Shown piece after piece: positions 590 through 20,641 of a stretch of 22,237 nt of DNA. Origin of the DNA: a virus; the IMG/VR virus record IMGVR_UViG_3300010885_001565, positions 1 through 22,237 of that record; one strand, written 5' to 3'. Numbering within the stretch: the stretch's first letter is position 1; the number at the start of each line of letters is the position of its first letter. The notes below the pieces were generated by a model that searched no databases, was not told where the DNA came from, and saw only the letters and a program-made list of their open reading frames with translations. The position numbers were made by a program, and so were the translations under genes.

Positions 590-1923
590 AGGTTGAATTG
601 GACTATTGTCCAAGAGATGTATTCCTAGATTTCCACGAAAGACCACAACGCTGGGCAGTAATCGTAGCCCATAGGCGCTGCGGTAAGACTGTTTCTTGCA
701 TTAATGAACTAATCTACAAAGCACTAATAGAGAACAAAGAAGATGGGCGCTATGCCTATGTTGCACCATATTACAGCCAAGCTAAGAATATCGCCTGGGA
801 CTATCTATTAAGATTTAGTCAGCCAGTAATGGCTAAAGCTAATCAATCAGAACTATGGGTGGAACTAATAAATGGAAGCCGTATTCGACTGTTTGGTGCT
901 GACAATGCTGATAGTTTGCGTGGTTTGTACCTTGATGGAATTGTCCTAGATGAGTATGCAGATATGCGTAGCCCTCGCATTTGGGGTGAGATTGTCCGGC
1001 CTTTGCTGGCAGACAGACTTGGATGGGCAGTTTTCATTGGAACGCCTAAAGGTCATAATGCCTTCTGGGATATCTACAATAACGCCACCCAAAACCTTGA
1101 TTGGTATGTAAAAGTATTAAGGGCTAGTCAGACAGGCTTATTGCCGCAAAAAGAATTAGAAGATGCTAAAAAGGTAATGACACCTGACCAGTATCTTCAA
1201 GAGATGGAATGCGATTTTGAGTCAGCCATATTAGGCGCTTACTATGGCGCTGAAATGCGTCAAATTACAGACCAAGGCAGAATCACCCCTATTAAGTTTG
1301 ACCCTATGTTCCCCTTGGAAAGCGCTTGGGACTTGGGTTATTCAGACGACACTACCATTTGGACTTACCAGGTTGTTCATGGAGAAGTTAGATTCCTTGA
1401 CTATCACACCACTAATGGCAAGTCTATTCCGTACTACACCGGCTACATCCAACAGAAAGAAATGGAGTATGGCGCTAAGTATGAGACACATTATTTGCCC
1501 CATGATGCTAGGGCTAAAACTTTAGCAAGTGGTGGAAAGTCTATAATTGAACAACTTTCTTTAAAAATTCCGTTAAAATCTATGAAGATTGTGCCAAATT
1601 TAGGACTTCAAGACGGAATTCAAGCAACTCGCATGATGTTATTGAGAAGCTGGTTTGACCCTAAATGTGAAGAAGGTATTGAATGTCTGCGTCAGTATCA
1701 AAGAGAGTTTGACGAGGACAAGAAAATATTTAGAGATAAGCCAAGACACGATTGGGCTTCACATGGTGCAGATGCAGCAAGGATGGCGGCAGTAGCTTGG
1801 AAAGAAAAAGAGAGAATTCCCCAGAAAGACGACTCGATTAAGGGAGTTTTGGTTGGACATACTGATGTTTCATTGAATGACTTGTGGAAATCAACACCCA
1901 AGCCTTCAATAGGGAGAATTTAA
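574..1923 (+). CDS. terL: Terminase large subunit
   Basis: This is the packaging motor: an ATPase that drives DNA into the prohead through the portal, and a nuclease that cuts the concatemer. The 449-aa protein shows a Walker A-type loop AHRRCGKT (residues 32-39), a Walker B strand GIVLDEYAD (122-130) and a coupling motif FIGTPKG (154-160). The RNase H-like nuclease half carries its acidic residues in AWDLGYSDDT (Asp253), LPHDA (Asp311) and HGADAAR (Asp400). Length and motif spacing fit the Terminase_6 family. The start is the TTG at 574: the frame is closed upstream by a TGA at 544-546 and no ATG occurs before the Walker A motif. No strong ribosome-binding site precedes it, so translation is probably coupled to the small subunit gene, which it overlaps. 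The stop overlaps the portal start (TAATG). Confidence 0.95.
   Translation: MEEELKVELDYCPRDVFLDFHERPQRWAVIVAHRRCGKTVSCINELIYKALIENKEDGRYAYVAPYYSQAKNIAWDYLLRFSQPVMAKANQSELWVELINGSRIRLFGADNADSLRGLYLDGIVLDEYADMRSPRIWGEIVRPLLADRLGWAVFIGTPKGHNAFWDIYNNATQNLDWYVKVLRASQTGLLPQKELEDAKKVMTPDQYLQEMECDFESAILGAYYGAEMRQITDQGRITPIKFDPMFPLESAWDLGYSDDTTIWTYQVVHGEVRFLDYHTTNGKSIPYYTGYIQQKEMEYGAKYETHYLPHDARAKTLASGGKSIIEQLSLKIPLKSMKIVPNLGLQDGIQATRMMLLRSWFDPKCEEGIECLRQYQREFDEDKKIFRDKPRHDWASHGADAARMAAVAWKEKERIPQKDDSIKGVLVGHTDVSLNDLWKSTPKPSIGRI
1911..1916 (+). promoter_or_regulatory. Ribosome-binding site that fixes the portal start
   Basis: AGGGAG lies six bases before the ATG at 1923. This supports a start at 1923 (M-A-N-D-K) rather than the in-frame codon at 1884, which would add 13 residues inside the terminase gene and has no comparable site. 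Confidence 0.8.
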
Positions 1924-4199
1924 TGGCGAATGACAAGGCAACTGTAAATCACAGTTATGAAGATTGGTACAAAACCATTATGGGCTACGAACGTAGCTAT
2001 AAGCGTTGGGAAGCCAGAGTAGACCGCATTGTAAAAAAATACAAGGATGACAGTCGTTATGACCGCAATCCTAATGCAAGATTCAATATCCTATGGTCTA
2101 ACGTACAAACCATTCAGCCTGCTATCTTTGCTAGACTTCCACGCCCAGATGTAAGCCGCAGATTCCGTGATACAGACCCTATTGGTCGTGTTGCCTCAAT
2201 GATGTTAGAACGTGCCTTAGAGTTTGAAATTGAACACTATGGCGACTACAAATCAGCTATGAATAACAGCGTGCTAGACCGCTTATTGGGTGGTCGTGGC
2301 GTAGCTTGGGTTCGTTATGAACCACATATTGTTGGTGAAGCTGCCGAAGAAGCTGATGGCGCACCTGATGATGGCTATGAAATTACCGAAGATACAGATG
2401 AAGCCGAAACTGAAGGCGGAATGGAAAATGAAAATCCAGAACGTATTGAGTATGAGTGCGCACCTGTAGATTATGTCCATTGGAAAGACTTTGGACACAC
2501 TATTGCAAGAACCTGGGAAGAAGTAACTGCTGTATGGCGTAAAGTCTATATGTCTCGCCCAGCATTGGTTGAACGCTTTGGTGAAGAATTAGGCTATCAA
2601 ATCCCTTTAGATACAAAGCCTGAAGATTTAAAGCAGTCCTATAAATCTGATGATAGTGTTTATGAAGCCCTTGTGTATGAAATTTGGGACAAAGAAACAG
2701 GCAAAGTTCTGTGGATTAGCAAGTCTTTAGGAAAGATTCTTGATGAACGTGATGACCCACTTGGTTTGGAAAACTTTTGGCCTTGTCCAAAACCTTTGTA
2801 TTCGACTCTTACTACCGACAGCCTTGAACCAATCCCTGACTTCGTTATCTACCAAGACCAAGCTAGAGAATTAGACGCTTTATGCGACAGAATTGATGGC
2901 TTGATTAACGCATTAAAAGTGCGTGGTGTGTATGATGCCTCTGCTGTTGAATTGCAGCGCTTGTTCTCCGAAGGCGAAAACAACACAATGATTCCAGTAA
3001 GTAACTGGATGGCTTTTGCTGAAAAACAAGGCATGAAAGGCGCTATTGATTTAGTAGATTTAGCCCCATTTGCCAGCGCATTGATGGCTTGCTATCAGGC
3101 AATGGAACAAGTTAAGGGTCAAATCTATGAATTAATGGGTATTGCTGACATTCAGCGTGGTCAAACTGACCCTAATGAGACCCTTGGCGCACAAATTATT
3201 AAGTCAAACAATGCTGCTGGTCGCCTAAAGACTATGCAACACGCAGTCGTAGACTTTGCTACTAGCTTGTTGTCCATTAAAGCGCAGATTATTTGCAATC
3301 ATTTTACCGATGACACATTGGTGAAGATTTCTGGCGCAATGCAGTTAAGTCCACAAGACCAAGCGCTTATTCCGCAAGCTATTGAACTGCTAAGAAACGA
3401 AGCAAGCAAGAATTTCCGCATTGAAGTCACTTCTGACTCAATGATTTACCAAGATGAACAACAAGAAAAGCAAGACCGCATGGCATTCTTGCAAGCTGTT
3501 GGTGGATTTATGGCACAAGCTGTACCAATGGTACAAAATACCCCTGAATTAGCACCTATGGCATTAGAAATGCTGAAGTTTGGTATTACTGCATTCAAAG
3601 CTGGCAAGCAATTAGAGGGAATTATTGACGAAACAGCCGACAAATTGCGTGTAATGAGTCAGAAGATGGAAGGCCAACCTAAACCGCCTCCACCAGAGAT
3701 TCAAAAAGCGCAGATGGACAACCAGGCGAAGATGCAACAGATTCAAATGCAAGCCCAGCTTGAACAAGCCAAACTACAAGGTCAAATGCAACTTGAAAAA
3801 GCCAAGCAAGAGTACCAGGCGCAAGAAAATCAGCTTAAATTCCAATTGGAAACTCAGCGTAACCAAGCAGATATGGATATGCAGCTAAAAGTAGCCCAAA
3901 TGAAGATGATGACTGAACGTAATACTCAAGTCCTTCTCGCCCACATCAATAATGGCACTAAGATTGAAGTAGCACGCATTGGTTCTGATAATTCTGATGG
4001 CGAACAAGCCTATATGACTGAAGAAGAATTGGCTAGGGCGCAAGAACACCCATTACAACCTATTGCTAATGCTATTGGTCAAGGAAATCAACAAATGGCA
4101 CAAGCTATTACTGCTTTGGTAGACACAATTAACCAACAACATAACCGCCCTAAGACAGTAGTGCGTGGCGCTGACGGCAAAATTATCGGGGTTCAATAA
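1923..4199 (+). CDS. Portal protein, P22-like, with long C-terminal coiled coil
   Basis: Portal proteins form the twelve-fold ring at the capsid vertex through which DNA is packaged and ejected. With the start at 1923 the protein has 758 residues, close to the large P22-type portals. The N-terminal third has the family hallmark of an FNILWSNVQT stretch followed by PAIFARLPRPDVSRRFRD. An acidic insertion follows at about residues 140-175. The C-terminal part, about residues 594-676, is a long helix rich in Gln, Met, Ala and Lys with heptad character, as expected for a barrel-type coiled coil projecting into the capsid. It sits directly after the terminase (TAATG overlap), the usual place. It could be annotated simply as a generic phage portal; the P22-like assignment is inferred from length, coil and the rest of the gene order. 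Confidence 0.9.
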   Translation: MANDKATVNHSYEDWYKTIMGYERSYKRWEARVDRIVKKYKDDSRYDRNPNARFNILWSNVQTIQPAIFARLPRPDVSRRFRDTDPIGRVASMMLERALEFEIEHYGDYKSAMNNSVLDRLLGGRGVAWVRYEPHIVGEAAEEADGAPDDGYEITEDTDEAETEGGMENENPERIEYECAPVDYVHWKDFGHTIARTWEEVTAVWRKVYMSRPALVERFGEELGYQIPLDTKPEDLKQSYKSDDSVYEALVYEIWDKETGKVLWISKSLGKILDERDDPLGLENFWPCPKPLYSTLTTDSLEPIPDFVIYQDQARELDALCDRIDGLINALKVRGVYDASAVELQRLFSEGENNTMIPVSNWMAFAEKQGMKGAIDLVDLAPFASALMACYQAMEQVKGQIYELMGIADIQRGQTDPNETLGAQIIKSNNAAGRLKTMQHAVVDFATSLLSIKAQIICNHFTDDTLVKISGAMQLSPQDQALIPQAIELLRNEASKNFRIEVTSDSMIYQDEQQEKQDRMAFLQAVGGFMAQAVPMVQNTPELAPMALEMLKFGITAFKAGKQLEGIIDETADKLRVMSQKMEGQPKPPPPEIQKAQMDNQAKMQQIQMQAQLEQAKLQGQMQLEKAKQEYQAQENQLKFQLETQRNQADMDMQLKVAQMKMMTERNTQVLLAHINNGTKIEVARIGSDNSDGEQAYMTEEELARAQEHPLQPIANAIGQGNQQMAQAITALVDTINQQHNRPKTVVRGADGKIIGVQ

Positions 4200-6451
4200 T
4201 GGCTATTACAGTCAAGCATACTAAGGTTTCAACGATACCTGACGGGGATGACTCATCCCTAATCCGCCCAAGCGATTGGAATGCTGACCATCAATTAGTC
4301 GGTACTATCCCTGTTTCTAATGGCGGTACAGGCGCATCAACCCTTACCGGATATGTAAAAGGCAATGGCACTAGCACAATGACTGCTAGTTCTACTATTC
4401 CCAATACAGACATTACAGGACTTGGTACTGCTTCAACTAAAGATGCTGGTGTAGCCAATGGCGTAGCAACGCTTGATTCTGCTGGTAAAGTGCCAGTTTC
4501 ACAAATTCCTGCGCTAGGTGATTTAAACTATCAAGGTACTTGGAACGCAACAACAAATACACCAACATTAACTTCCTCTGTAGGTACTAAGGGTTATTAC
4601 TATGTTGTTAGCGTTGCAGGTACAACTAACCTTAATGGCATTACAGATTGGCAAGTAGGCGATTGGGCTGTATATAACGGTTCAGCCTGGCAAAAGATTG
4701 ACAATACCGATGCAGTAACTAGCGTAAACGGCTATACAGGCACAGTCGTTTTAACGCAATCTGACATTAGTGGCACAGTCCCAACAAGCAGAACAATTAC
4801 TGCTGGAACTGGCTTAACGGGTGGTGGCGACTTATCTGCCAACCGCACATTAGCCATTGCAACAACTGGTGTATCTGCCGCAACTTATGGTTCTGCAAGC
4901 GTTGTGCCTGTAATAGCAATAAATACGCAAGGTCAAATTACTAGCGCAACAAATACCACGATTGCTATTGCAAATACTCAAGTTAGCGGTCTTGGCACAA
5001 TGTCTACTCAAAACGCTAATAGCGTAGCGATTACAGGCGGCAGCATTAACGGCACTACGATTGGCGGTACTGCACAAGCAGATATTACTGGCAATACTAT
5101 TGCCGCTTATACAAAATTTGTAGCTACTGATTATTACGCACAATCAATTACAGGCGGTAATTTACGCACTTCAGGCGGCACATCGTTATTAAACTGGGAT
5201 GGCGGTGGTAGCGGTAATGTCAGCGTAAATGGTGGTTTAACTGTAAACCCATCCAATAAGAATGTAAGCCTAGCACCTAGCGGTACAGGTACAGTTACAG
5301 TAAACCCTGCAACTGCTGGTTCAATAGATAACATGGTTATTGGTGCTACAACACCTAAAGCCATTACAGGAACTACAGTAACGGCAACGACATTTAGTGG
5401 TTCAGGTGCAAGTCTGACTTCTATTCCTAATTCTGCGCTTGTAAACTCTGCAATCACAATTAATGGCAATTCAACAGCTTTAGGGGGCTCTGTAAGCGTT
5501 GGAACAGTAACTAGCGTGACAGCAACCGCAGGCACAGGAATTAGCGTAAGCGGAAGCCCAATTACTACTAGCGGCACTTTGACTATTACTAATACTGCCC
5601 CTGACCAAACCGTTGCCTTGACTAGCGGAACTGGAATTAGTGTTACTGGTACTTACCCTAATTTCACAGTTACTAATACAGCCCCATCTAGCGGTGGTAC
5701 TGTAACTAGCGTAACTGGTACTGCGCCTGTAGTTTCTAGCGGTGGTAATACTCCAGCTATTAGCATGGCTGCGGCTACTGGGTCTGTACCTGGTTATTTA
5801 ACTGCTGCTGATTGGACTACTTTCAATGGTAAATATTCAGTAGGTGGCGCATTAGGTACACCATCTTCTGCCACATTGACAAATGCTACTGGATTGCCTG
5901 TAGGTGGAATTAGTGCTACTGGTACACCATCATCTACTACTTATTTGCGTGGCGACGGTACTTGGTCATCTGTTTCAGCTACTACAGCTAATAACCTAGC
6001 TGGCGGTGCATTAGGTTCAGTACCTTATCAACTGCTTTCAGGTACAACTGTATTTTTAGCCGGTAATACCACAACTACCCCTCAGTTTTTAACTTCTACA
6101 GGCGTAGCTGGAATAGCAACTGCACCAACTTATACAGGTTCTACAGGTAGTGGAAACGTAGTATTGGCAACTAGCCCTACATTAGTAACCCCAGCTTTAG
6201 GCACGCCATCAAGTGGAGTTGTAACAAACTTAACTGGTACGGCCTCAATCAATATTAATGGTACTGTAGGCGCTACAACTGCTAATACAGGGGCATTTAC
6301 TACTTTGTCAGCCTCTTCTACAGTTTCAGGCACAGGATTTTCTACTTATTTAGCAAGCCCTCCAGCTATCGGTGGCACGGCAGCAGCAGCTATTACTGGA
6401 ACAACCATTACTGCTACTAAGTTTGTAGGGGTATCTGGCGGAACATTCTAA
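4199..6451 (+). CDS. Tail fibre-like repeat protein
   Basis: This 750-aa protein is very rich in Gly, Thr, Ser, Ala and Val, low in charge, and built from short repeated tiles, the composition of trimeric phage fibres. Near the N-terminus are DGDDSSLIRPSDWNADH (residues 15-31) and IPVSNGGTGASTLTGYVKGN (37-56), both common in phage fibre proteins. A module with DLNYQGTWNATTNTPTL and WQVGDWAVYNGSAW (108-165) follows, then NGYTGTVVL. Three looser copies of an IGxT...AITGTTITATKF tile occur near residues 281-308, 377-400 and 720-746. It ends in GVSGGTF with no distinct receptor-binding or peptidase domain. Its place between portal and scaffold is unusual for a fibre gene. It overlaps its neighbours on both sides by one base (TAATG). 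An adhesin-like capsid or neck appendage is an alternative. Confidence 0.8.
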   Translation: MAITVKHTKVSTIPDGDDSSLIRPSDWNADHQLVGTIPVSNGGTGASTLTGYVKGNGTSTMTASSTIPNTDITGLGTASTKDAGVANGVATLDSAGKVPVSQIPALGDLNYQGTWNATTNTPTLTSSVGTKGYYYVVSVAGTTNLNGITDWQVGDWAVYNGSAWQKIDNTDAVTSVNGYTGTVVLTQSDISGTVPTSRTITAGTGLTGGGDLSANRTLAIATTGVSAATYGSASVVPVIAINTQGQITSATNTTIAIANTQVSGLGTMSTQNANSVAITGGSINGTTIGGTAQADITGNTIAAYTKFVATDYYAQSITGGNLRTSGGTSLLNWDGGGSGNVSVNGGLTVNPSNKNVSLAPSGTGTVTVNPATAGSIDNMVIGATTPKAITGTTVTATTFSGSGASLTSIPNSALVNSAITINGNSTALGGSVSVGTVTSVTATAGTGISVSGSPITTSGTLTITNTAPDQTVALTSGTGISVTGTYPNFTVTNTAPSSGGTVTSVTGTAPVVSSGGNTPAISMAAATGSVPGYLTAADWTTFNGKYSVGGALGTPSSATLTNATGLPVGGISATGTPSSTTYLRGDGTWSSVSATTANNLAGGALGSVPYQLLSGTTVFLAGNTTTTPQFLTSTGVAGIATAPTYTGSTGSGNVVLATSPTLVTPALGTPSSGVVTNLTGTASININGTVGATTANTGAFTTLSASSTVSGTGFSTYLASPPAIGGTAAAAITGTTITATKFVGVSGGTF
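6143..6214 (+). repeat. Fibre tile shared with the 20093-20164 copy
   Basis: This 72-base stretch encodes TGSGNVVLATSPTLVTPALG and four more residues. The 246-aa protein at 19901 carries the same tile (TGSGATVLATSPTLVTPALG). About three quarters of the bases match (54 of 72 by hand count), and most differences in the second half are third-codon changes, so the two copies are related but not recent. Confidence 0.85.
6437..6451 (+). repeat. 15-base gene-end repeat, copy 1
   Basis: GGCGGAACATTCTAA forms the last codons and stop of the 750-aa fibre-like gene. The same 15 bases with one change end the 79-aa fibre gene at 19885-19899. In both places the next start codon follows at once. Confidence 0.85.
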
Positions 6452-6927
6452 TGTTTCAAACTGCTTTCCAAGTCAATGCGTTTCAAAATGACGCATTCCA
6501 AATTGTCATTACCCCTACCAATGTAAAGAATGGTGGGGATGATGCGCCATATACAAGGGAAGAATTAAAGCGTCTTAAAGGTATTCAGAAGAAACTGCGC
6601 CAGGCAGAAGAAAAGCGTATTGCTGCATTAAAAGCAGACCAAGAAACAAGAAAACAAACCATTGCTGATTTGGTATCGCCTCCAAAGGTAAGCAAACGCA
6701 AACAAAATAAAGTAGAATCAAAACAAGAAGTTAGCATTGATACACCGTCAAATCTAGCAAACATTGACAGGTATATTGCTAATCTTACAAAGCAACAACA
6801 AGACCTGCAAAACGCTGTACTTTTAAGGGCTGCAAAACTCCGTTTAGAACAGGAATTAGCAGTATTAGAAGCAAAGCGTCAAGCCGAATTAGATGATGAA
6901 GAAGCACTATTGGCATTAATTTTATAA
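6451..6927 (+). CDS. Coiled-coil protein with N-terminal FQ repeats
   Basis: I do not recognise a family for this 158-aa protein. Its first 17 residues are a short repeat, MFQTAFQVNAFQNDAFQ, with FQ at positions 2, 6, 11 and 16. Similar AFQ repeats are seen at the ends of phage structural proteins. The remainder is highly charged and helical: a Lys/Arg/Glu-rich segment (about 35-75), a linker with Ser, Pro and Lys, then a helix rich in Leu, Gln and Ala (about 105-158) ending in EEALLALIL. It starts inside the stop codon of the fibre-like gene (TAATG), so its translation is probably tied to that gene. It may be a fibre partner, assembly chaperone or minor structural protein; this is inference from adjacency. 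Confidence 0.72.
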   Translation: MFQTAFQVNAFQNDAFQIVITPTNVKNGGDDAPYTREELKRLKGIQKKLRQAEEKRIAALKADQETRKQTIADLVSPPKVSKRKQNKVESKQEVSIDTPSNLANIDRYIANLTKQQQDLQNAVLLRAAKLRLEQELAVLEAKRQAELDDEEALLALIL

Positions 6928-6946: not shown

Positions 6947-7840
6947 ATGACTCCTTATCAACAGTATAAAAAAGGCGTAGATTTACTTCATTTAGGACAC
7001 TTTCAAGCAGGCTTTAGACTCTATGAATATAGATGGCATCCTAAAGTCATAGAAGCAACAGGCGAAAGATTCCAAAAATGGATAGCAGCCCCTAAATGGG
7101 ATGGCGAAAGACTATTTGGCAAGCATATAACAGTCCAAATGGAACAAGGATTTGGCGACATTATCCAGTTTGCTAGATTTCTGCCAATGCTTAAAGTCTG
7201 GGGCGCTAAAACCCTATCAGTAATGTGCGAAAAATCCATGATGAGGCTATTAGGGACTATGGATTGCATAGATTACCTATCTTGTATCAAGGATGAAGGC
7301 CCACCATTAGAAGCTGATTATTGGATTGGGTCTATGTCGTTACCCCATTTTGCAACTTATGCGCCCCCATTCGTAAAACAATGCTTCCCCATTACAAAAG
7401 AAAAAATTGTAGGGTCAGAGGGTTATTTTGAAGCCATTGCAAGCAATATAGAACGCAAAGTAGGAATTAATTGGCACGCTTCTAATGGCCCATTGCACTA
7501 CGTCAAGTCTTTGCCTTTGGGCGAAATGCGTGAAATGCTTGGCGACAATATGTACTCCTTACACACTACCGCTAGTGATGTATTTGACCCATTGCCCAAT
7601 GATGGATGGCAACAAGACTTTTATAAGACTGCCTGCCACATGAAAGCTATGAAGGCAGTTATTGCCCCAGATACTGCTACTGCCCATCTTGCCGGTGCTT
7701 TGGGCGTTAAATGTTTTATGTTGCTACCAGAAGATGACTATGTATGTTGGAGGTGGCGACATGGCACTTGGTATGACTCTGTTATACCGCTTCGTAAACA
7801 TGAATGGCATAAATTGCCTAGTCTTTTGGAGAAATTATGA
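6947..7840 (+). CDS. GT9/heptosyltransferase-like glycosyltransferase
   Basis: This 297-aa protein resembles bacterial TPR-linked glycosyltransferase family 9 (GT-B fold) proteins, which transfer sugars from a nucleotide or ADP donor. An N-terminal TPR-like helix pair (YKKGVDLLHLGHFQAGFRLYE) leads to the loop MEQGFGDIIQFARFLPML (residues 65-82). VGINWHAS (172-179) and APDTATAHLAGALG (240-253) match the donor-binding C-terminal half. The tail PEDDYVCWRWRHGTWYDSV also matches the family, in which a WRW...PWYPS-type ending is usual. At 297 aa it is compact but keeps both halves. It lies between a Ser/Thr-rich fibre block and the scaffold gene, and its ATGA stop/start overlap couples it to the next gene. 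The nearest ribosome-binding-like purines are about 13 bases from the ATG, so expression may be modest. The substrate is unknown: host surface glycan and fibre residues are both possible. Confidence 0.8.
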   Translation: MTPYQQYKKGVDLLHLGHFQAGFRLYEYRWHPKVIEATGERFQKWIAAPKWDGERLFGKHITVQMEQGFGDIIQFARFLPMLKVWGAKTLSVMCEKSMMRLLGTMDCIDYLSCIKDEGPPLEADYWIGSMSLPHFATYAPPFVKQCFPITKEKIVGSEGYFEAIASNIERKVGINWHASNGPLHYVKSLPLGEMREMLGDNMYSLHTTASDVFDPLPNDGWQQDFYKTACHMKAMKAVIAPDTATAHLAGALGVKCFMLLPEDDYVCWRWRHGTWYDSVIPLRKHEWHKLPSLLEKL

Positions 7841-8214
7841 TTTGCCCTAAATGTGGATGGTCTGAAGGCAACCATGTTGCAAAAAAACAACAACAAACCG
7901 ATGAAGAATTCTTTATCGAATGGTGGACACCTACCGTTGGATTGGAAGAAGCAAAGCGGTCTTGGTTAGAAAAGCAAGAAAACAAAAGACGTGAGGCAGC
8001 AATGGTCATGTCTGATATTGAAGGCTATGTTTCCCAGGTAGATGGCACATGGATTAAAAGCCGTAGCCATCATAGGGCGCATTTAAAAGAACACCGAATG
8101 ATTGAATTAGGTAACGATGTACCAATGAAGCACCCTGAAATTAAGCTAGACCGCAAAAGTAATGAAGCACGCAAACGCCAAATCGCTGAGATGGCATACG
8201 AAAAACTTAGATAA
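7837..8214 (+). CDS. FmdB-like zinc-ribbon phage protein
   Basis: This 125-aa protein starts with MICPKCGW, one CPKC knuckle (Cys3, Cys6). No second Cys pair is present, so any metal site would be half a ribbon or would need a partner. The conserved part is DIEGYVSQVDGTWIKSRSHH (residues 60-79) followed by RAHLKEHRMIELGND (80-94). This matches a segment common in phage proteins annotated as FmdB-type regulators, encoded just upstream of scaffold or capsid genes. The rest is charged and helical with a basic C-terminus. It starts inside the stop of the glycosyltransferase gene (ATGA) with GGAG just upstream, and precedes the scaffold gene by 23 bases. The function is not established. Binding nucleic acid or a head assembly factor is inference. 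Confidence 0.72.
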   Translation: MICPKCGWSEGNHVAKKQQQTDEEFFIEWWTPTVGLEEAKRSWLEKQENKRREAAMVMSDIEGYVSQVDGTWIKSRSHHRAHLKEHRMIELGNDVPMKHPEIKLDRKSNEARKRQIAEMAYEKLR

Positions 8215-8237: not shown

Positions 8238-9281
8238 ATGTCAGAAGAACAATTAGACCGCAGAAGCCTTTTGGAAGCAGCTTACGAAGAAGCAGAGGAA
8301 AGCAATGACGAACAACCCTTGGAAGTACAGGAGGTTTTGCCTAAAGATAATGCCGAGGAGTCCATTGAAGCGGAAGTTAGCAATGACGACCACGAAGAAC
8401 CTGCCGAGGATATTCAAGCTGCTAAATCTGAGGAGTCGGATGAAGAACCGCAGGAAAAACAGGTAAGTCGCCCTTCTACATGGAAAAAAGAGTATGTCCA
8501 GATTTGGGACAAAATGGAAGCTGGCGAACAGATTAGCAAAGAGGACTTTGTAAAATTTGCCGAGTATGCTAACCAGCGTGAGTCTGAGTACAAAAAAGGT
8601 GTAAGCACCTACAAAGCTGAAGCTGACCGTGCTAAATCTTACGAAAACGCTATTGCGCCATACGCACAAGACCTACAAAAGCGTGGAATTCAGCCTACTC
8701 AATACATTGAAAACCTAGTTCGTGCAGAACAGATTTTATCCAATGCACCCTACGAACAAAAGGTGCAAGTATTTCAAAGACTTGCAGCAGATTATGGAAT
8801 ACAATTAAATGGCGGACAAGTAGCACAACTTGACCCCTACACGCAACAATTGATGAACCAGTTAAATCAGGTAAATCAAGAAGTTTCAAGTATTAAAGGT
8901 CGGTTTGCCCAAGAGGAAAACCAACGTTTAATGCAGGAAATTGAGAAGTATCGAAGTGATACGGAGAAATACCCTCACTTTGATGTGGTAAGGGAAGAAA
9001 TGGCTCAATTACTTGAGTTAGGGAAAGCCCAAGACCTCGAAACGGCCTACAAGAAAGCCGTGCGTATGAATGATGATGTTTGGTCTGTCGAACAAGAAAG
9101 ACTCTTGAAAGATGCTAAACAGGCAACAATCAAAGCACAGCAAGTAGCGAAGGCTAAGGCAGCAGCAGTAAGTCCTCGTTCCGTTACACCTAGCGGAAAA
9201 GTGTCTGAACCTGGTGATAAAAAGGATAGACGGTCTCTTATTGCCGACCAATTGGGTGAAGCAATGAGTCGTCGGGTTTAA
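8238..9281 (+). CDS. Scaffolding protein
   Basis: Scaffolding proteins template the procapsid and leave before or during packaging. This 347-aa protein sits just before the major capsid gene. It has the expected make-up: a very acidic disordered N-terminus (residues 10-75, mostly Glu, Asp and Ser), then a helical core starting SRPSTWKKEYVQIWDKM and YANQRESEYKKGVSTYKAEA. Gln/Glu/Lys-rich coiled-coil segments follow (about 105-135 and 205-245). A basic C-terminal end (about 290-347, with KDRRSLIADQLGEAMSRRV) could contact the capsid protein. No cysteine or membrane segment is present. The start has a good AGGAGA site. No protease motif is seen, so the scaffold is probably released rather than cut. 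The call rests on composition, position and the conserved WKKE/YKKG segment. Confidence 0.85.
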   Translation: MSEEQLDRRSLLEAAYEEAEESNDEQPLEVQEVLPKDNAEESIEAEVSNDDHEEPAEDIQAAKSEESDEEPQEKQVSRPSTWKKEYVQIWDKMEAGEQISKEDFVKFAEYANQRESEYKKGVSTYKAEADRAKSYENAIAPYAQDLQKRGIQPTQYIENLVRAEQILSNAPYEQKVQVFQRLAADYGIQLNGGQVAQLDPYTQQLMNQLNQVNQEVSSIKGRFAQEENQRLMQEIEKYRSDTEKYPHFDVVREEMAQLLELGKAQDLETAYKKAVRMNDDVWSVEQERLLKDAKQATIKAQQVAKAKAAAVSPRSVTPSGKVSEPGDKKDRRSLIADQLGEAMSRRV

Positions 9282-9305: not shown

Positions 9306-10280
9306 ATGGCATTCGCTAACTCAGCAATTACCGATATTATCGCTACCACTATTCAAAGTCGTAGCGGTGAATTGGCAGACAACTTGACACAAAACAACGC
9401 AATTCTTCAGCGTTTAAACCAGAAGGGCAATGTACGCCCATTCTCAGGTGGTAACGTAATTCTTGAAGAAATTATGTACAACGACCCAAATACTAATAAC
9501 GCTAACTCTTATAGCGGTTACGAAGTATTGAACATTGCCCCAGATAGCCCTATTTCTGCTGCCCAGTTCAAAATTGCACAGTACGCTGATGCAGTTACTA
9601 TGTCTGGCTTGGAAATGTTGCAAAACTCAAGCAAAGAAGCAATCATCGACTTGTTGGATGGTCGTATGCAAGTTTCCGAAGCACGCTTGTTGAACCGTAT
9701 TTCTGGTGACTTGTTCAAAGACGGAACAGGTAATGGCGGTAAAGACTTAGATGGTTTGGGCGCTGCTGTTTCAGCAACTCCTACAACTGGCACATACGGT
9801 GGTATTAACCGTGCTAACTGGTCTTTCTGGCAGAACCAAGTAACTACTGGTGCTACTTCTGCAAACATTTTGGCTTCTATGACTACTGCTGCTATCAAGC
9901 AGATTCGTGGTACTGACAAGGCTGACTTGATTGTTGCTGGTAACACAATGTACCAATACTATGTTGGCGCATTGCAAGCTATTCAGCGTATCGCTGCTGA
10001 AGAATCCGGTGCTGCTGGTTTCGCTTCTTTGAAGTTCTACGGTGGCGGTACATCTGCTGACGTGGTATTGGGTGGCGGTTATGGTTCACAAGAAACAGCT
10101 ACATATATGTACTTGTTGAACACAAACTACATCTTCCTGCGCCCACATAAAGAACGTAACTTTGTACCTATCGGTGGCGAACGTCAGTCAATCAACCAAG
10201 ACGCAATCGTGAAGTTATACGGTTGGGCTGGTAACTTGACTACTTCTAACAGCTTCCTACAAGGCTTGCTGACAACCTAA
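9306..10280 (+). CDS. Major capsid protein
   Basis: This 324-aa protein forms the shell and probably has the HK97 fold. It matches the phage major capsid family by the N-terminal QRLNQKGNVRPFSGGNVILEE region, the mid segment VLGGGYGSQETATYMYLLNT, and the end with FLRPHKERNFVPIGGERQS and NQDAIVKLYGWAGN. There is no long delta domain in front, in line with a separate scaffold gene. Leu is mostly TTG and Asn mostly AAC, unlike the TTA/AAT-rich genes nearby, which suggests selection for high expression. A T-run followed by AAGGAA before the ATG makes a strong start site. A hairpin terminator follows directly (10282-10310). Confidence 0.93.
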   Translation: MAFANSAITDIIATTIQSRSGELADNLTQNNAILQRLNQKGNVRPFSGGNVILEEIMYNDPNTNNANSYSGYEVLNIAPDSPISAAQFKIAQYADAVTMSGLEMLQNSSKEAIIDLLDGRMQVSEARLLNRISGDLFKDGTGNGGKDLDGLGAAVSATPTTGTYGGINRANWSFWQNQVTTGATSANILASMTTAAIKQIRGTDKADLIVAGNTMYQYYVGALQAIQRIAAEESGAAGFASLKFYGGGTSADVVLGGGYGSQETATYMYLLNTNYIFLRPHKERNFVPIGGERQSINQDAIVKLYGWAGNLTTSNSFLQGLLTT

Positions 10281-17976: not shown

Positions 17977-19667
17977 TGGCTACATATACAGTAGAAGCAC
18001 CTGATGGAAAAACAATTACTTTAGAAGGGCCTGCTGGCGCTTCTCAAGCGGATGTTATTGCACAAGCACAACAATTATATAAACCACAGCAATCTGCACC
18101 AACACCTACGCCTGCTTCAAGCGGTCAATTTGGTGAAAATGCCGGTGGCGCTGCTTTTGGTCGCCCAATTAATCGTGGTCAATTAAATGTTCAACAAACT
18201 CCTAGGCCATTAGAATCAGCATTGGCAGCATTGACTAAAGAAGCGGTTGTAAATCCCGTATTGGGCGCTGTTCAATTAGCTACAGGCGGTCAGGTTGGCA
18301 ATCAAGCCGTACAAAGCATGGCACAACAAGCAAAACCATACGAAGAAGCTAATCCAGGTTCTTATTTAGCTGGTCAAGTTGCTGGTGCTGTAGCACCTGC
18401 TGCTGGTATTGCTAAAGGAATTGGCATGATTCCTAGCTTTGCTAAAGCCGCACCTTTGCTACAAAATGTTGGTGGGGCTATGGTTCAAGGCGCATTAATG
18501 CCTAATGAAACAGGTAAAACTGGCACAGAATTATATGCGCAAAAAGCAAAAGAAGCGCCTGTAAATGCGTTGCTTGGCACAATTCCTAGTGTTGCTAGTA
18601 AGGGTGGAGAATTATTAGGTTCATTGTTGCGCAAAGGTGCTGGCATCTCTACAGGCGCAGGTGAAGAAGCTATTGCACAAGCCTATAAGTCTGGAAAGTC
18701 TAGCAACCAGGAGTTTTTGGCAAATATGCGTAATGAAATGCCAATGGAAGAAGTGCTTAATCAAGCCAAAGAAGCGCTTGCTTCTATGCGTTCACAACGC
18801 ATGGGCGCATACCAAGAAGGTATTGCTTCCATTAAACCAAACCAAGAAATTGTTGCTGGCAAAGCATTGCCCATACCAGCTAAACGTTTAGACTTTTCTC
18901 CTATTGAAAGTAAATTGTCTGAAGTTGTTGATTCTATGAAGATTTCAACACCAACAGGCGAAAAGTTAAAAATTGGCGCAGATGAAGCAAAAAAAGTAAA
19001 TGAACTTGAAAAAATTGTCCAAGAATGGAAATCAGACCCAACATTCCATACTGCTGAAGGATTAGACGCATTAAAACAACGTTTAGACGCTTTATACCCT
19101 GAAAGTCCAATGCAGCGTCAAGCGCAAAGGGCAATTACTTCTGTTCGTAATGCAGTAAAAGACACCATTGTTTCTCAAGACAAATCTTATGCTTCAACAA
19201 TGAAAAATTATGAAGAAGCACTTGGTCTTGAAAGAGAAATTGAAAGGTCATTGTCTTTAGGCAAAGGTAAATCTCAAGAAGCAGCATTAAAAAAATTGCA
19301 ATCTTTAACTAGAAACAATGTAAATACAGATTATGGTTTTAGACAACAGTTAGCAAATGAGTTAATGCGTCAATCTGGCACAGATTTAATGCCAGCTATT
19401 TCAGGCCAAGCATTAAATTCTTGGACTCCAAGAGGTTTGGTAGGACAAGGACTTGATGTTGGCGCAGGTTTGGGCGCTATTTTAAGTGGTGGCGCACATT
19501 TACCAGGATTAGCAGCAACTATGGCTACTACTAGCCCTCGTTTAATGGGCGAAGCAGCTTATAAAGCGGGGCAAATTGCTTCCAAAACCCCTAAAATTAC
19601 AGATGAACAAAAGAAAATAGCCCAATTATTATTAATGCGTGGTGTACAAGGAGTAACAAATGAGTAG
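17976..19667 (+). CDS. Large internal virion / DNA-ejection protein candidate (563 aa)
   Basis: The first 35 residues, YTVEAPDGKTITLEGPAGAS followed by QADVIAQAQQLYK, form a short domain often found at the start of large phage ejection proteins. A Pro/Gln linker follows (36-55). Next are Gly/Ala-rich amphipathic or hydrophobic helices (about 127-175 with YLAGQVAGAVAPAAGIAKGI, and 195-225). A charged helical middle (250-445) has KKVNELEKIVQEW and EALGLEREIERSLS. A second Gly/Ala-rich region lies at 486-535 with GLVGQGLDVGAGLGAILSGG. No lysozyme or peptidase motif is visible, so it does not look like an injected murein hydrolase. It overlaps the next gene by eight bases, and AAGGAG for that gene lies inside its end. 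Confidence 0.72.
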   Translation: MATYTVEAPDGKTITLEGPAGASQADVIAQAQQLYKPQQSAPTPTPASSGQFGENAGGAAFGRPINRGQLNVQQTPRPLESALAALTKEAVVNPVLGAVQLATGGQVGNQAVQSMAQQAKPYEEANPGSYLAGQVAGAVAPAAGIAKGIGMIPSFAKAAPLLQNVGGAMVQGALMPNETGKTGTELYAQKAKEAPVNALLGTIPSVASKGGELLGSLLRKGAGISTGAGEEAIAQAYKSGKSSNQEFLANMRNEMPMEEVLNQAKEALASMRSQRMGAYQEGIASIKPNQEIVAGKALPIPAKRLDFSPIESKLSEVVDSMKISTPTGEKLKIGADEAKKVNELEKIVQEWKSDPTFHTAEGLDALKQRLDALYPESPMQRQAQRAITSVRNAVKDTIVSQDKSYASTMKNYEEALGLEREIERSLSLGKGKSQEAALKKLQSLTRNNVNTDYGFRQQLANELMRQSGTDLMPAISGQALNSWTPRGLVGQGLDVGAGLGAILSGGAHLPGLAATMATTSPRLMGEAAYKAGQIASKTPKITDEQKKIAQLLLMRGVQGVTNE

Positions 19668-19899
19668 AAACGGTAGCGGAGTCTATAACCTCCCAAGCGG
19701 TAACCCAGTAGTAACAGGCACTACTATTACAAGTAGCTGGGCTAACACAACCATGCAAAACATTGCTGATGCCCTTACTCAGTCTGTTTCAGCAGACGGT
19801 CAAACACCTATGTCTGGCGCACTCAATATGGCAACAAACGACATTAATAATGTTGGTACACTAACAGCCTTAACAGGCATCTTTGGCGGAACATACTAA
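19660..19899 (+). CDS. Tail fibre N-terminal (anchor) fragment, 79 aa
   Basis: The sequence opens with MSRNGSGVYNLPSGNPVVTG and continues TTITSSWANTTMQNIADALT, the standard N-terminal virion-binding domain of many podovirus tail fibres. It then has the tile SADGQTPMSGALNMATNDIN and stops after GIFGGTY. Family members usually continue into a long shaft, so this looks like an anchor piece separated from its shaft. The start has an AAGGAG site inside the previous gene. A single base separates its TAA from the next ATG, in a different frame. The last 15 bases match the end of the 750-aa fibre gene. It may be a true two-part fibre or a decayed one; the intact start signals and shared ending favour the former. 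Confidence 0.82.
   Translation: MSRNGSGVYNLPSGNPVVTGTTITSSWANTTMQNIADALTQSVSADGQTPMSGALNMATNDINNVGTLTALTGIFGGTY
19885..19899 (+). repeat. 15-base gene-end repeat, copy 2
   Basis: GGCGGAACATACTAA ends the 79-aa fibre gene and differs at one base from the end of the 750-aa gene (6437-6451). Its GGCGGA is also the nearest purine-rich site to the ATG at 19901, though 10 bases away. Confidence 0.85.
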
Positions 19900-19900
19900 A

Positions 19901-20641
19901 ATGGCACAAACAGGATTTACACCCATATCGAATTACTATTCAGCTACGGCAACTAATGTCCCTACTGCTGGTAATTTAGTCGCTGGCGAATTAGCTATTA
20001 ATACTGCTGATGGCAAACTATTTTATAAAGACTCTAGCGGTGTAGTACAAACTATTGCCACTAAAGCTGCGGCTGCATTAGGAACAAGCACAACAGGTAG
20101 TGGTGCTACTGTATTAGCGACTAGCCCTACTTTAGTTACTCCAGCATTAGGAACTCCATCAGCAATTAATCTAACTAATGCAACAGCATTGCCATCATCA
20201 GCATTACCTGCTGGTACTGTATTACAGGTAGTTAGCACAACAAAAACTGATGCTTTTTCAACAACTTCAACAAGTTTTGTTGATGTAACTGGATTATCGG
20301 TTTCAATTACTCCTAAATTTTCAACAAGCAAAATATTAGTACAAATAACTGCATCATCAACTGGTGGTCGTGCAAATGTGGTAACAATGTTTAACCAAAT
20401 AGTTAGAAATTCAACGGCTATATACAATATGGGAAATGGTCCAGGAACAACACCTGACAATAGTAGTGACCAACCAACAGTTATATCTGCAAATTATTTG
20501 GATTCTCCTGCAACAACTTCTGCTACAACATACAAAATGCAAATTAGAGGAGATGGTGCGCTTGTAGGCATTAATAGAAGCGCATCAACTTCTACTGTCA
20601 TTGGAAATTCTACAATTACTGTTATGGAGATTGCACAATAA
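19901..20641 (+). CDS. Tail fibre / receptor-binding-type protein, 246 aa
   Basis: The start is placed at the ATG at 19901 (MAQTGFTPISNYYSATATNV). An upstream in-frame codon at 19883 lies inside the previous gene and lacks support. The N-terminus with LVAGELAINTADGKLFYKDS (residues 27-46) is a common phage fibre module. A linker tile TGSGATVLATSPTLVTPALG (65-84) is shared with the 750-aa protein. The C-terminal half (105-246) looks like a jelly-roll tip found in phages of aquatic bacteria: FSTTSTSFVDVTGLSVSITP, SKILVQITASS, YLDSPATTSATTYKMQIRGD and a final STITVMEIAQ. Trimerisation and receptor binding are inferred from family resemblance. Confidence 0.8.
   Translation: MAQTGFTPISNYYSATATNVPTAGNLVAGELAINTADGKLFYKDSSGVVQTIATKAAAALGTSTTGSGATVLATSPTLVTPALGTPSAINLTNATALPSSALPAGTVLQVVSTTKTDAFSTTSTSFVDVTGLSVSITPKFSTSKILVQITASSTGGRANVVTMFNQIVRNSTAIYNMGNGPGTTPDNSSDQPTVISANYLDSPATTSATTYKMQIRGDGALVGINRSASTSTVIGNSTITVMEIAQ
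20093..20164 (+). repeat. Fibre tile shared with the 6143-6214 copy
   Basis: This stretch encodes residues 65-88 of the 246-aa protein and is the second copy of the LATSPTLVTPALGTPS tile. It is colinear with the first copy without gaps. Confidence 0.85.

Follow-up and report, generated by a model that had tools for sequence, protein, structure and literature searches.

The gene at 6947..7840 (hereafter GT) is predicted to encode a soluble, active-looking GT-B glycosyltransferase with an intact donor site. It is a core gene of its phage clade, fixed between the fibre and coil158 genes on one side and the head genes on the other, and closely related phages swap it alone, as a single-gene cassette. 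We propose that the enzyme adds sugar to Ser or Thr residues of the phage's own exposed virion proteins, in the first place the fibre or else coil158, and we give this reading a probability of about one half.

A fixed but exchanged gene in the virion block

Genes were read in order across the whole stretch of DNA analysed (the window), a virus record of 22,237 bases. TerL was followed by these genes:

1884..4199, + strand: portal protein (phrog_12082, E 1e-177)
4199..6451, + strand: Ser/Thr-rich fibre of 750 residues, 31.5% Ser+Thr, candidate substrate (phrog_13892, minor tail protein, E 1.7e-23; composition)
6451..6927, + strand: coil158, candidate adaptor or second substrate (model, synteny, long variants in relatives)
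6947..7840, + strand: GT, GT-B glycosyltransferase gene, 297 residues, ATG start (open reading frame, AlphaFold2 model, Foldseek and VIA-align, omega)
7837..8214, + strand: Zn-ribbon-like gene with CxxC (Zn125), overlapping the GT stop by 4 nt (open reading frame, synteny)
8238..9281, + strand: scaffold-like acidic protein (scaf), named from position and composition only
9306..10280, + strand: major capsid protein (MCP; phrog_9953, E 1.3e-92)

The sequence-only reading had placed GT between portal and scaffold, two genes from a long Ser/Thr-rich fibre; the open reading frames, the portal and capsid matches and the fibre composition confirmed this, GT lying two genes downstream of the fibre. 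Elsewhere from TerL to the capsid, Ser and Thr made up 8-15% of the window's proteins, rising to 17-29% for some genes past the capsid. A second Ser/Thr-rich, fibre-like pair of open reading frames (27-29% Ser+Thr) was found at 19660-20641, the longer of which shared 55% identity with part of the 4199-6451 fibre. The GTG start of the portal (1884-1922 region) is probably too early, and an ATG 13 codons further (MANDKA...) appears the likelier start. The Zn-ribbon-like gene had no significant Pfam match. It varied strongly among phages (39-100% identity in a set of 59 loci), in part along with GT type (partial rank correlation 0.34).

Scans with GT and MCP detected 307 and 593 relatives respectively, and 80 of each were kept. 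GT was present in 60 of the 80 loci fetched with MCP; in the remaining 20 the DNA begins downstream of the expected GT site. All 36 MCP-fetched loci that held both portal and MCP matches also held GT. After duplicate removal, 282 GT loci yielded 190 distinct copies, and in 171 of these coil158 lay directly upstream and Zn125 directly downstream. The other 19 comprised 13 with a contig end on one side, five in which scaf was the next gene to be detected, and one with no upstream gene detected. coil158 adjoined GT in all loci where it was visible, and every clade genome that could be judged had both GT and the fibre.

The named phages related by MCP and portal were Mx8, Mx9, BUCT555, ppBjS10J-1 and others, at 25-50% identity. 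In five Mx8-like records there was no annotated GT between portal and capsid and no annotated fibre-coil158-GT block there. A phage-wide protein search (E 1e-5) detected GT relatives in four records only, none of them among the five. The earlier claim that such an enzyme is out of place in a structural operon holds in comparison with Mx8-like phages but not within the present clade, where the gene is a fixed component.

Exchange was assessed in 366 pairs of loci whose identity reached 92% or more in MCP and 80% or more in portal. Across these pairs GT identity spanned 45-100% in a distribution with several peaks; it fell below 60% in 85 pairs, compared with seven for coil158 and none for scaf. 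The rank correlation between GT and portal was 0.15, versus 0.75 for coil158 and portal and 0.80 for scaf and MCP. L045 and L151, for example, were 96% identical in portal, 85% in coil158, 98% in Zn125, 95% in scaf and 100% in MCP, but only 51% in GT. The converse was seen in L020 and L006, with 96% identity in GT, 39% in coil158 and 53% in scaf. Neither the exchange nor the absent start codons of relatives (see below) were part of the sequence-only reading, as both become visible only by comparison among genomes.

A match between GT type and fibre type was looked for and found no support. Among 283 close-backbone pairs at the extremes of GT identity, median fibre 5-mer sharing was 0.156 where GT was alike (n=198) and 0.141 where it was unlike (n=85; p 0.63), and the partial rank correlation was 0.12, with permutation counts that ignore relatedness. 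Since GT type does not predict fibre content, no cognate pairing of fibre and enzyme is seen, and the fibre stays a candidate substrate.

Predicted fold and bacterial relatives

An AlphaFold2 model of GT, built from an alignment of 32 relatives, had a mean pLDDT of 89.3 and a pTM of 0.89. It showed a GT-B domain from about residue 59, preceded by a helical hairpin. The top Foldseek matches were a GT9 structure (3tov, E 6e-7), WaaC, TibC and WaaF. The VIA-align Z scores were 16.3 for 3tov (rmsd 3.0, 224 residues), 15.4 for WaaC, 15.3 for WaaF and 14.6 for TibC (rmsd 2.9, 224 residues), with overall ranges of 218-224 residues and rmsd 2.9-3.3. The topology is therefore GT9-like, and the structure prediction proposed as a check of the GT-B assignment bore it out. 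Four features were located within the gene:

6953..7036, + strand: N-terminal helical hairpin, residues 3-30, with helices 3-15 and 19-30 (model)
7142..7159, + strand: EQGFGD loop, residues 66-71, with E66, Q67, G68, G70 and D71 invariant in 32 phage copies
7670..7705, + strand: donor-site motif DTATAHLAGALG, residues 242-253 (alignment with WaaC, conservation)
7748..7774, + strand: WRW...WY motif, residues 268-276 (conservation)

Both GT-B halves, which the sequence-only reading had recognised from the GFGD loop and DTATAHLAGALG, were present and invariant or nearly so in the 32 diverse relatives. Invariant positions beyond the loop included W176, D242-T243, A246-H247 and W268-R269-W270. With 25 bacterial relatives added, G70, D71, W176, D242, T243, A246, H247, W268 and R269 were still invariant; W270, W275 and Y276 were conserved in at least 90% of phage and bacterial relatives. 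D242, T243 and H247 aligned with D261, T262 and H266 of WaaC, which gives the ADP-binding DTxxxH motif. D71 probably acts as the catalytic base, on the assumption that it corresponds to D110 of TibC and D13 of WaaC.

The median omega of GT was 0.081 (870 pairs at 80-97% protein identity), indicating purifying selection, so the open reading frame is not a chance one. The highest mean hydropathy over any 19-residue stretch was 1.21, and no transmembrane segment is expected from so low a peak. A catalytically dead GT, acting as a structural or chaperone subunit, would fit the absence of a TPR array and the purely structural genes around it. We regard this as very improbable, as the low omega and the donor-site D, T, H, W and R residues, retained in phage and bacterial copies alike, speak against it.

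The earlier assignment to the GT9 heptosyltransferases fared differently for fold and for sequence family. The window GT scored 12.6 bits against Pfam Glyco_transf_9 (PF01075), below the gathering cut-off of 22, although the profile matched 31 of the 32 relatives at E<=0.1 (best 1.6e-5). The NCBIfam model for heptosyltransferase I was touched by 24 of the 32 at the same threshold. No PHROG match was found for the window GT, nor for any of the 32 members at E<=0.01, and none of the 32 phage copies had a TPR match in Pfam. Sequence searches of the PDB with the single sequence and with a phage profile gave chance matches only, while a mixed profile gave weak GT9/WaaC matches (E 0.035-0.14). Since the Pfam score is below the cut-off and the alignment of E. 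coli WaaC to GT covers only 35 columns, a plain WaaC-type heptosyltransferase was rejected as a family label and kept as a description of the fold.

A genome scan detected 316 cellular relatives, of which 80, at about 27-35% identity, were kept. In 79 of these the open reading frame began between 42 and 1,574 residues before the match, and in the remaining one it started at the match, near a contig end. TPR arrays lay upstream of the match in all five bacterial relatives scanned. An HMM of the bacterial domains matched every one of 140 phage copies, with a median of 165 bits and 179 bits for the window GT; this result is partly circular, as the domains came from relatives that the phage profile had detected. 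The HMM aligned from residue 10 of GT, and the hairpin lies where the bacterial relatives carry the end of the TPR array. A flagellin-like motif occurred within about 6 kb in four of the 80. By sequence comparison, the nearest cellular relatives of GT are TPR-linked glycosyltransferases with the architecture of FlmG, not ordinary LPS heptosyltransferases, and the phage form has lost the TPR array.

FlmG of Caulobacter is described as a soluble flagellin O-glycosyltransferase of 596 residues, with TPRs in residues 1-313 and a C-terminal GT-B domain; the TPR half is the part that binds flagellin, and supplying only the GT half fails to rescue function (PMC7591256). The phage enzyme shares with this type solubility and a homologous GT-B domain bearing EQGxGD, DTAxAHLAGALG and WRW..WY, as judged from the bacterial relatives, which stood in for FlmG in the alignment. 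Unlike FlmG, it has a single hairpin in place of the array and is encoded in a virion operon. Because FlmG-type relatives carry TPRs and GT is without an array, GT is related to their catalytic half only and has no counterpart of the half that serves in recognition. TibC, an autotransporter heptosyltransferase (BAHT) with a GT9-like fold, is described as adding heptose to Ser residues of a surface adhesin and as having an N-terminal beta-barrel of about 97 residues (PMC4358343); the phage model shares its GT-B fold but has the helical hairpin instead of the barrel.

WaaC and WaaF resemble GT in fold and in the DTxxxH donor motif, and differ in sequence family and in gene context. This likeness bears on a different reading, already raised in outline from the sequence, in which GT modifies a host surface glycan (LPS core or other) during infection, lowering superinfection or re-adsorption to debris, and exchange follows host glycan types. 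The matches to heptosyltransferase I and an exchange that is independent of the fibre are consistent with it. We consider it unlikely, given the TPR-linked nearest relatives, the lack of a membrane segment and the fixed position in a virion block that is presumably expressed late, when a surface change would help little.

A probable ATT start in the larger lineage

In a first set of 138 GT copies, 79 had a standard start upstream of the conserved P3, 57 had none and two ran into a contig end. All 57 start-less copies had an in-frame ATT 5-8 codons upstream of P3. The control genes at those 57 loci all had a standard start near their aligned beginning, with the exception of the portal (5 of 11), for which we consider the reference, the window's own portal start, to be taken too far upstream, making that control uninformative. 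The extended set held 185 near-complete copies out of the 190 distinct ones: 118 were ATT-only, with no ATG, GTG or TTG start, 64 had a standard start, two were truncated and one had neither. The last (L404) had no coil158 detected upstream. In a tree of 103 representatives under 95% identity the ATT copies all fell on a single deep branch (100/100), within which L160 was the only reversal. They were found in L072-L081 and in most non-type-A loci of L085-L164 and L299-L420 (for example L151, ~5600-5640). The window copy has an ATG start.

Relative to coil158 the ATT is in the -1 frame, and it falls within the last part of that gene. By codon logic, the coil158 frame forbids ATG, GTG and TTG in the GT frame except via a TGA stop, and coil158 in the ATT copies ends with TAA or TAG. 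All 70 distinct 39-nt coil158 tails held the ATT, where synonymous resampling expects 64%; the tails were treated as independent though they are related, so that the product probability overstates the significance. An SD-like GAGG, AGGA or GGAG was present in 67 of the 70 (expected 35%). In 57 of the 70 tails an ATT came exactly 7 nt after GAGG, the spacing being mostly 4-10 nt, and the next base was A in 99 of 101 cases.

Initiation at AUU is the simplest reading of these sequences. The main alternative is that ribosomes terminate on coil158 and reinitiate at the NTA codon that overlaps its stop. A programmed -1 frameshift leading from coil158 to GT was not favoured, as the 57 loci contained no in-frame slippery heptamers. 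In the type-A loci (L003, L004, L006-L009 and similar) a strong SD-like AAGGAGAAGG was found ~20 nt upstream of the GT ATG, a spacing too long for that ATG, and a conserved GATTACTTGCC came after it. A GT relative in BFVD (A0A6J7WM20, 250 residues, 50% identity) is probably an ATT-start copy that was annotated too short. In E. coli, AUU is stated to serve as start codon in no more than two genes, infC and pcnB (PMC9410913); the conserved AUU start is a separate test case.

Candidate substrates and significance

If active and expressed late, GT would be made in the cytosol together with the virion proteins. It would take a host sugar nucleotide as donor and transfer the sugar to Ser or Thr of the nascent fibre (31% Ser/Thr), or of a repeat-bearing coil158, before assembly. 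An exchange of GT alone would then change the sugar on the particle and leave capsid and portal unaltered. Glycosylation of the fibre, which the sequence-only reading had suggested, gains from the gene order here and in unrelated phages, and from TibC and FlmG as enzymes that modify proteins. It loses from the uncoupling of enzyme type and fibre content, from the missing TPR array, which is the specificity module of FlmG, and from the fact that no GT-less, fibre-bearing genome serves as a control.

The unrelated phages are very different from the present clade, but their GT relatives also lie among fibre genes. S-SRM01 gp338 (a cyanomyovirus; 449 residues, annotated as a TPR protein) and the copy in marine virus AG-345-E08 (436 residues, weak TPR matches) are 24-25% identical to GT. 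The former is downstream of a long tail fibre gene, and the latter has tail fibre (phrog_529)/RCC1 genes on one side and a sugar block on the other; a relative in BUCT-ZZ01 adjoins tail fibre/BNR genes. Alongside the TPR glycosyltransferase and tail fibres, the AG-345-E08 block (L082, 21174-24024) encodes an NAD epimerase, a heptose-1-P adenylyltransferase-like protein (phrog_7878), a PfkB kinase and a cupin. Because of this neighbourhood and the fold, ADP-heptose would be the likeliest donor. Pseudaminic acid, the donor of FlmG, has no support for the phage enzyme.

The model of coil158 (pLDDT 72.7) consisted of two long helices (H36-75 and H101-157) after a disordered N-terminus. In long variants (L151, L042, L066, L070 and L023) N-terminal, Thr/Asp-rich repeats of the ATDGTDTATLTG type replace the short AFQxNAFQ. 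As these variants swap the N-terminus only, that end is modular and the C-terminus constant. A PHROG scan of the variants gave scattered weak matches only. coil158 as a hidden TPR adaptor was rejected, since it had no TPR match in Pfam and the model holds no more than the two helices; this lack also weighs against virion glycosylation, and an adaptor role for coil158 is a guess. A fuller scheme, which we offer tentatively and hold to be clearly less probable than virion glycosylation as such, is that in this clade of tailed phages an enzyme for virion glycosylation is mandatory and travels as a single-gene cassette, a stripped FlmG-type enzyme working with coil158 as a separate helical adaptor. 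A swap would re-sugar an otherwise unchanged particle, and in the larger lineage GT levels would be kept low by translation from an AUU whose ribosome-binding site lies hidden within the virion gene before it.

The substrate could also be another virion protein, such as the capsid, the second fibre at 19660-20641 or a head decoration, rather than the 4199-6451 fibre. The Ser/Thr content of that second fibre and the lack of GT-fibre pairing agree with this, as does the capsid glycosylation described in mycobacteriophages Che8 and Rita (PMC11256854). We think it rather improbable, as GT is constantly preceded by the fibre and coil158 genes and the block is not annotated at this place in the five Mx8-like records.

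Our search of one open-access collection of papers, with a limited set of terms, found no paper on GT in the present phage group. Phage virions are usually thought to be unglycosylated. Phage-directed glycosylation of the virion is already known from mycobacteriophages, where phage-encoded glycosyltransferases modify the particle of Che8 and Rita; the hosts differ, and, at least in Maravista, the enzymes are encoded close to the 3′ end (PMC11256854). What is new, as far as this search could show, is a core TPR-less enzyme of FlmG type in a virion operon, its single-gene exchange and a conserved ATT start in most copies. If GT modifies the particle, hundreds of uncultured phage contigs (at least 307 relatives) possess a virion-sugar gene that is obligatory and recombines in the manner of a serotype locus. 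One could then ask by experiment whether phages alter their recognition of hosts, or evade neutralisation, via sugar and not protein.
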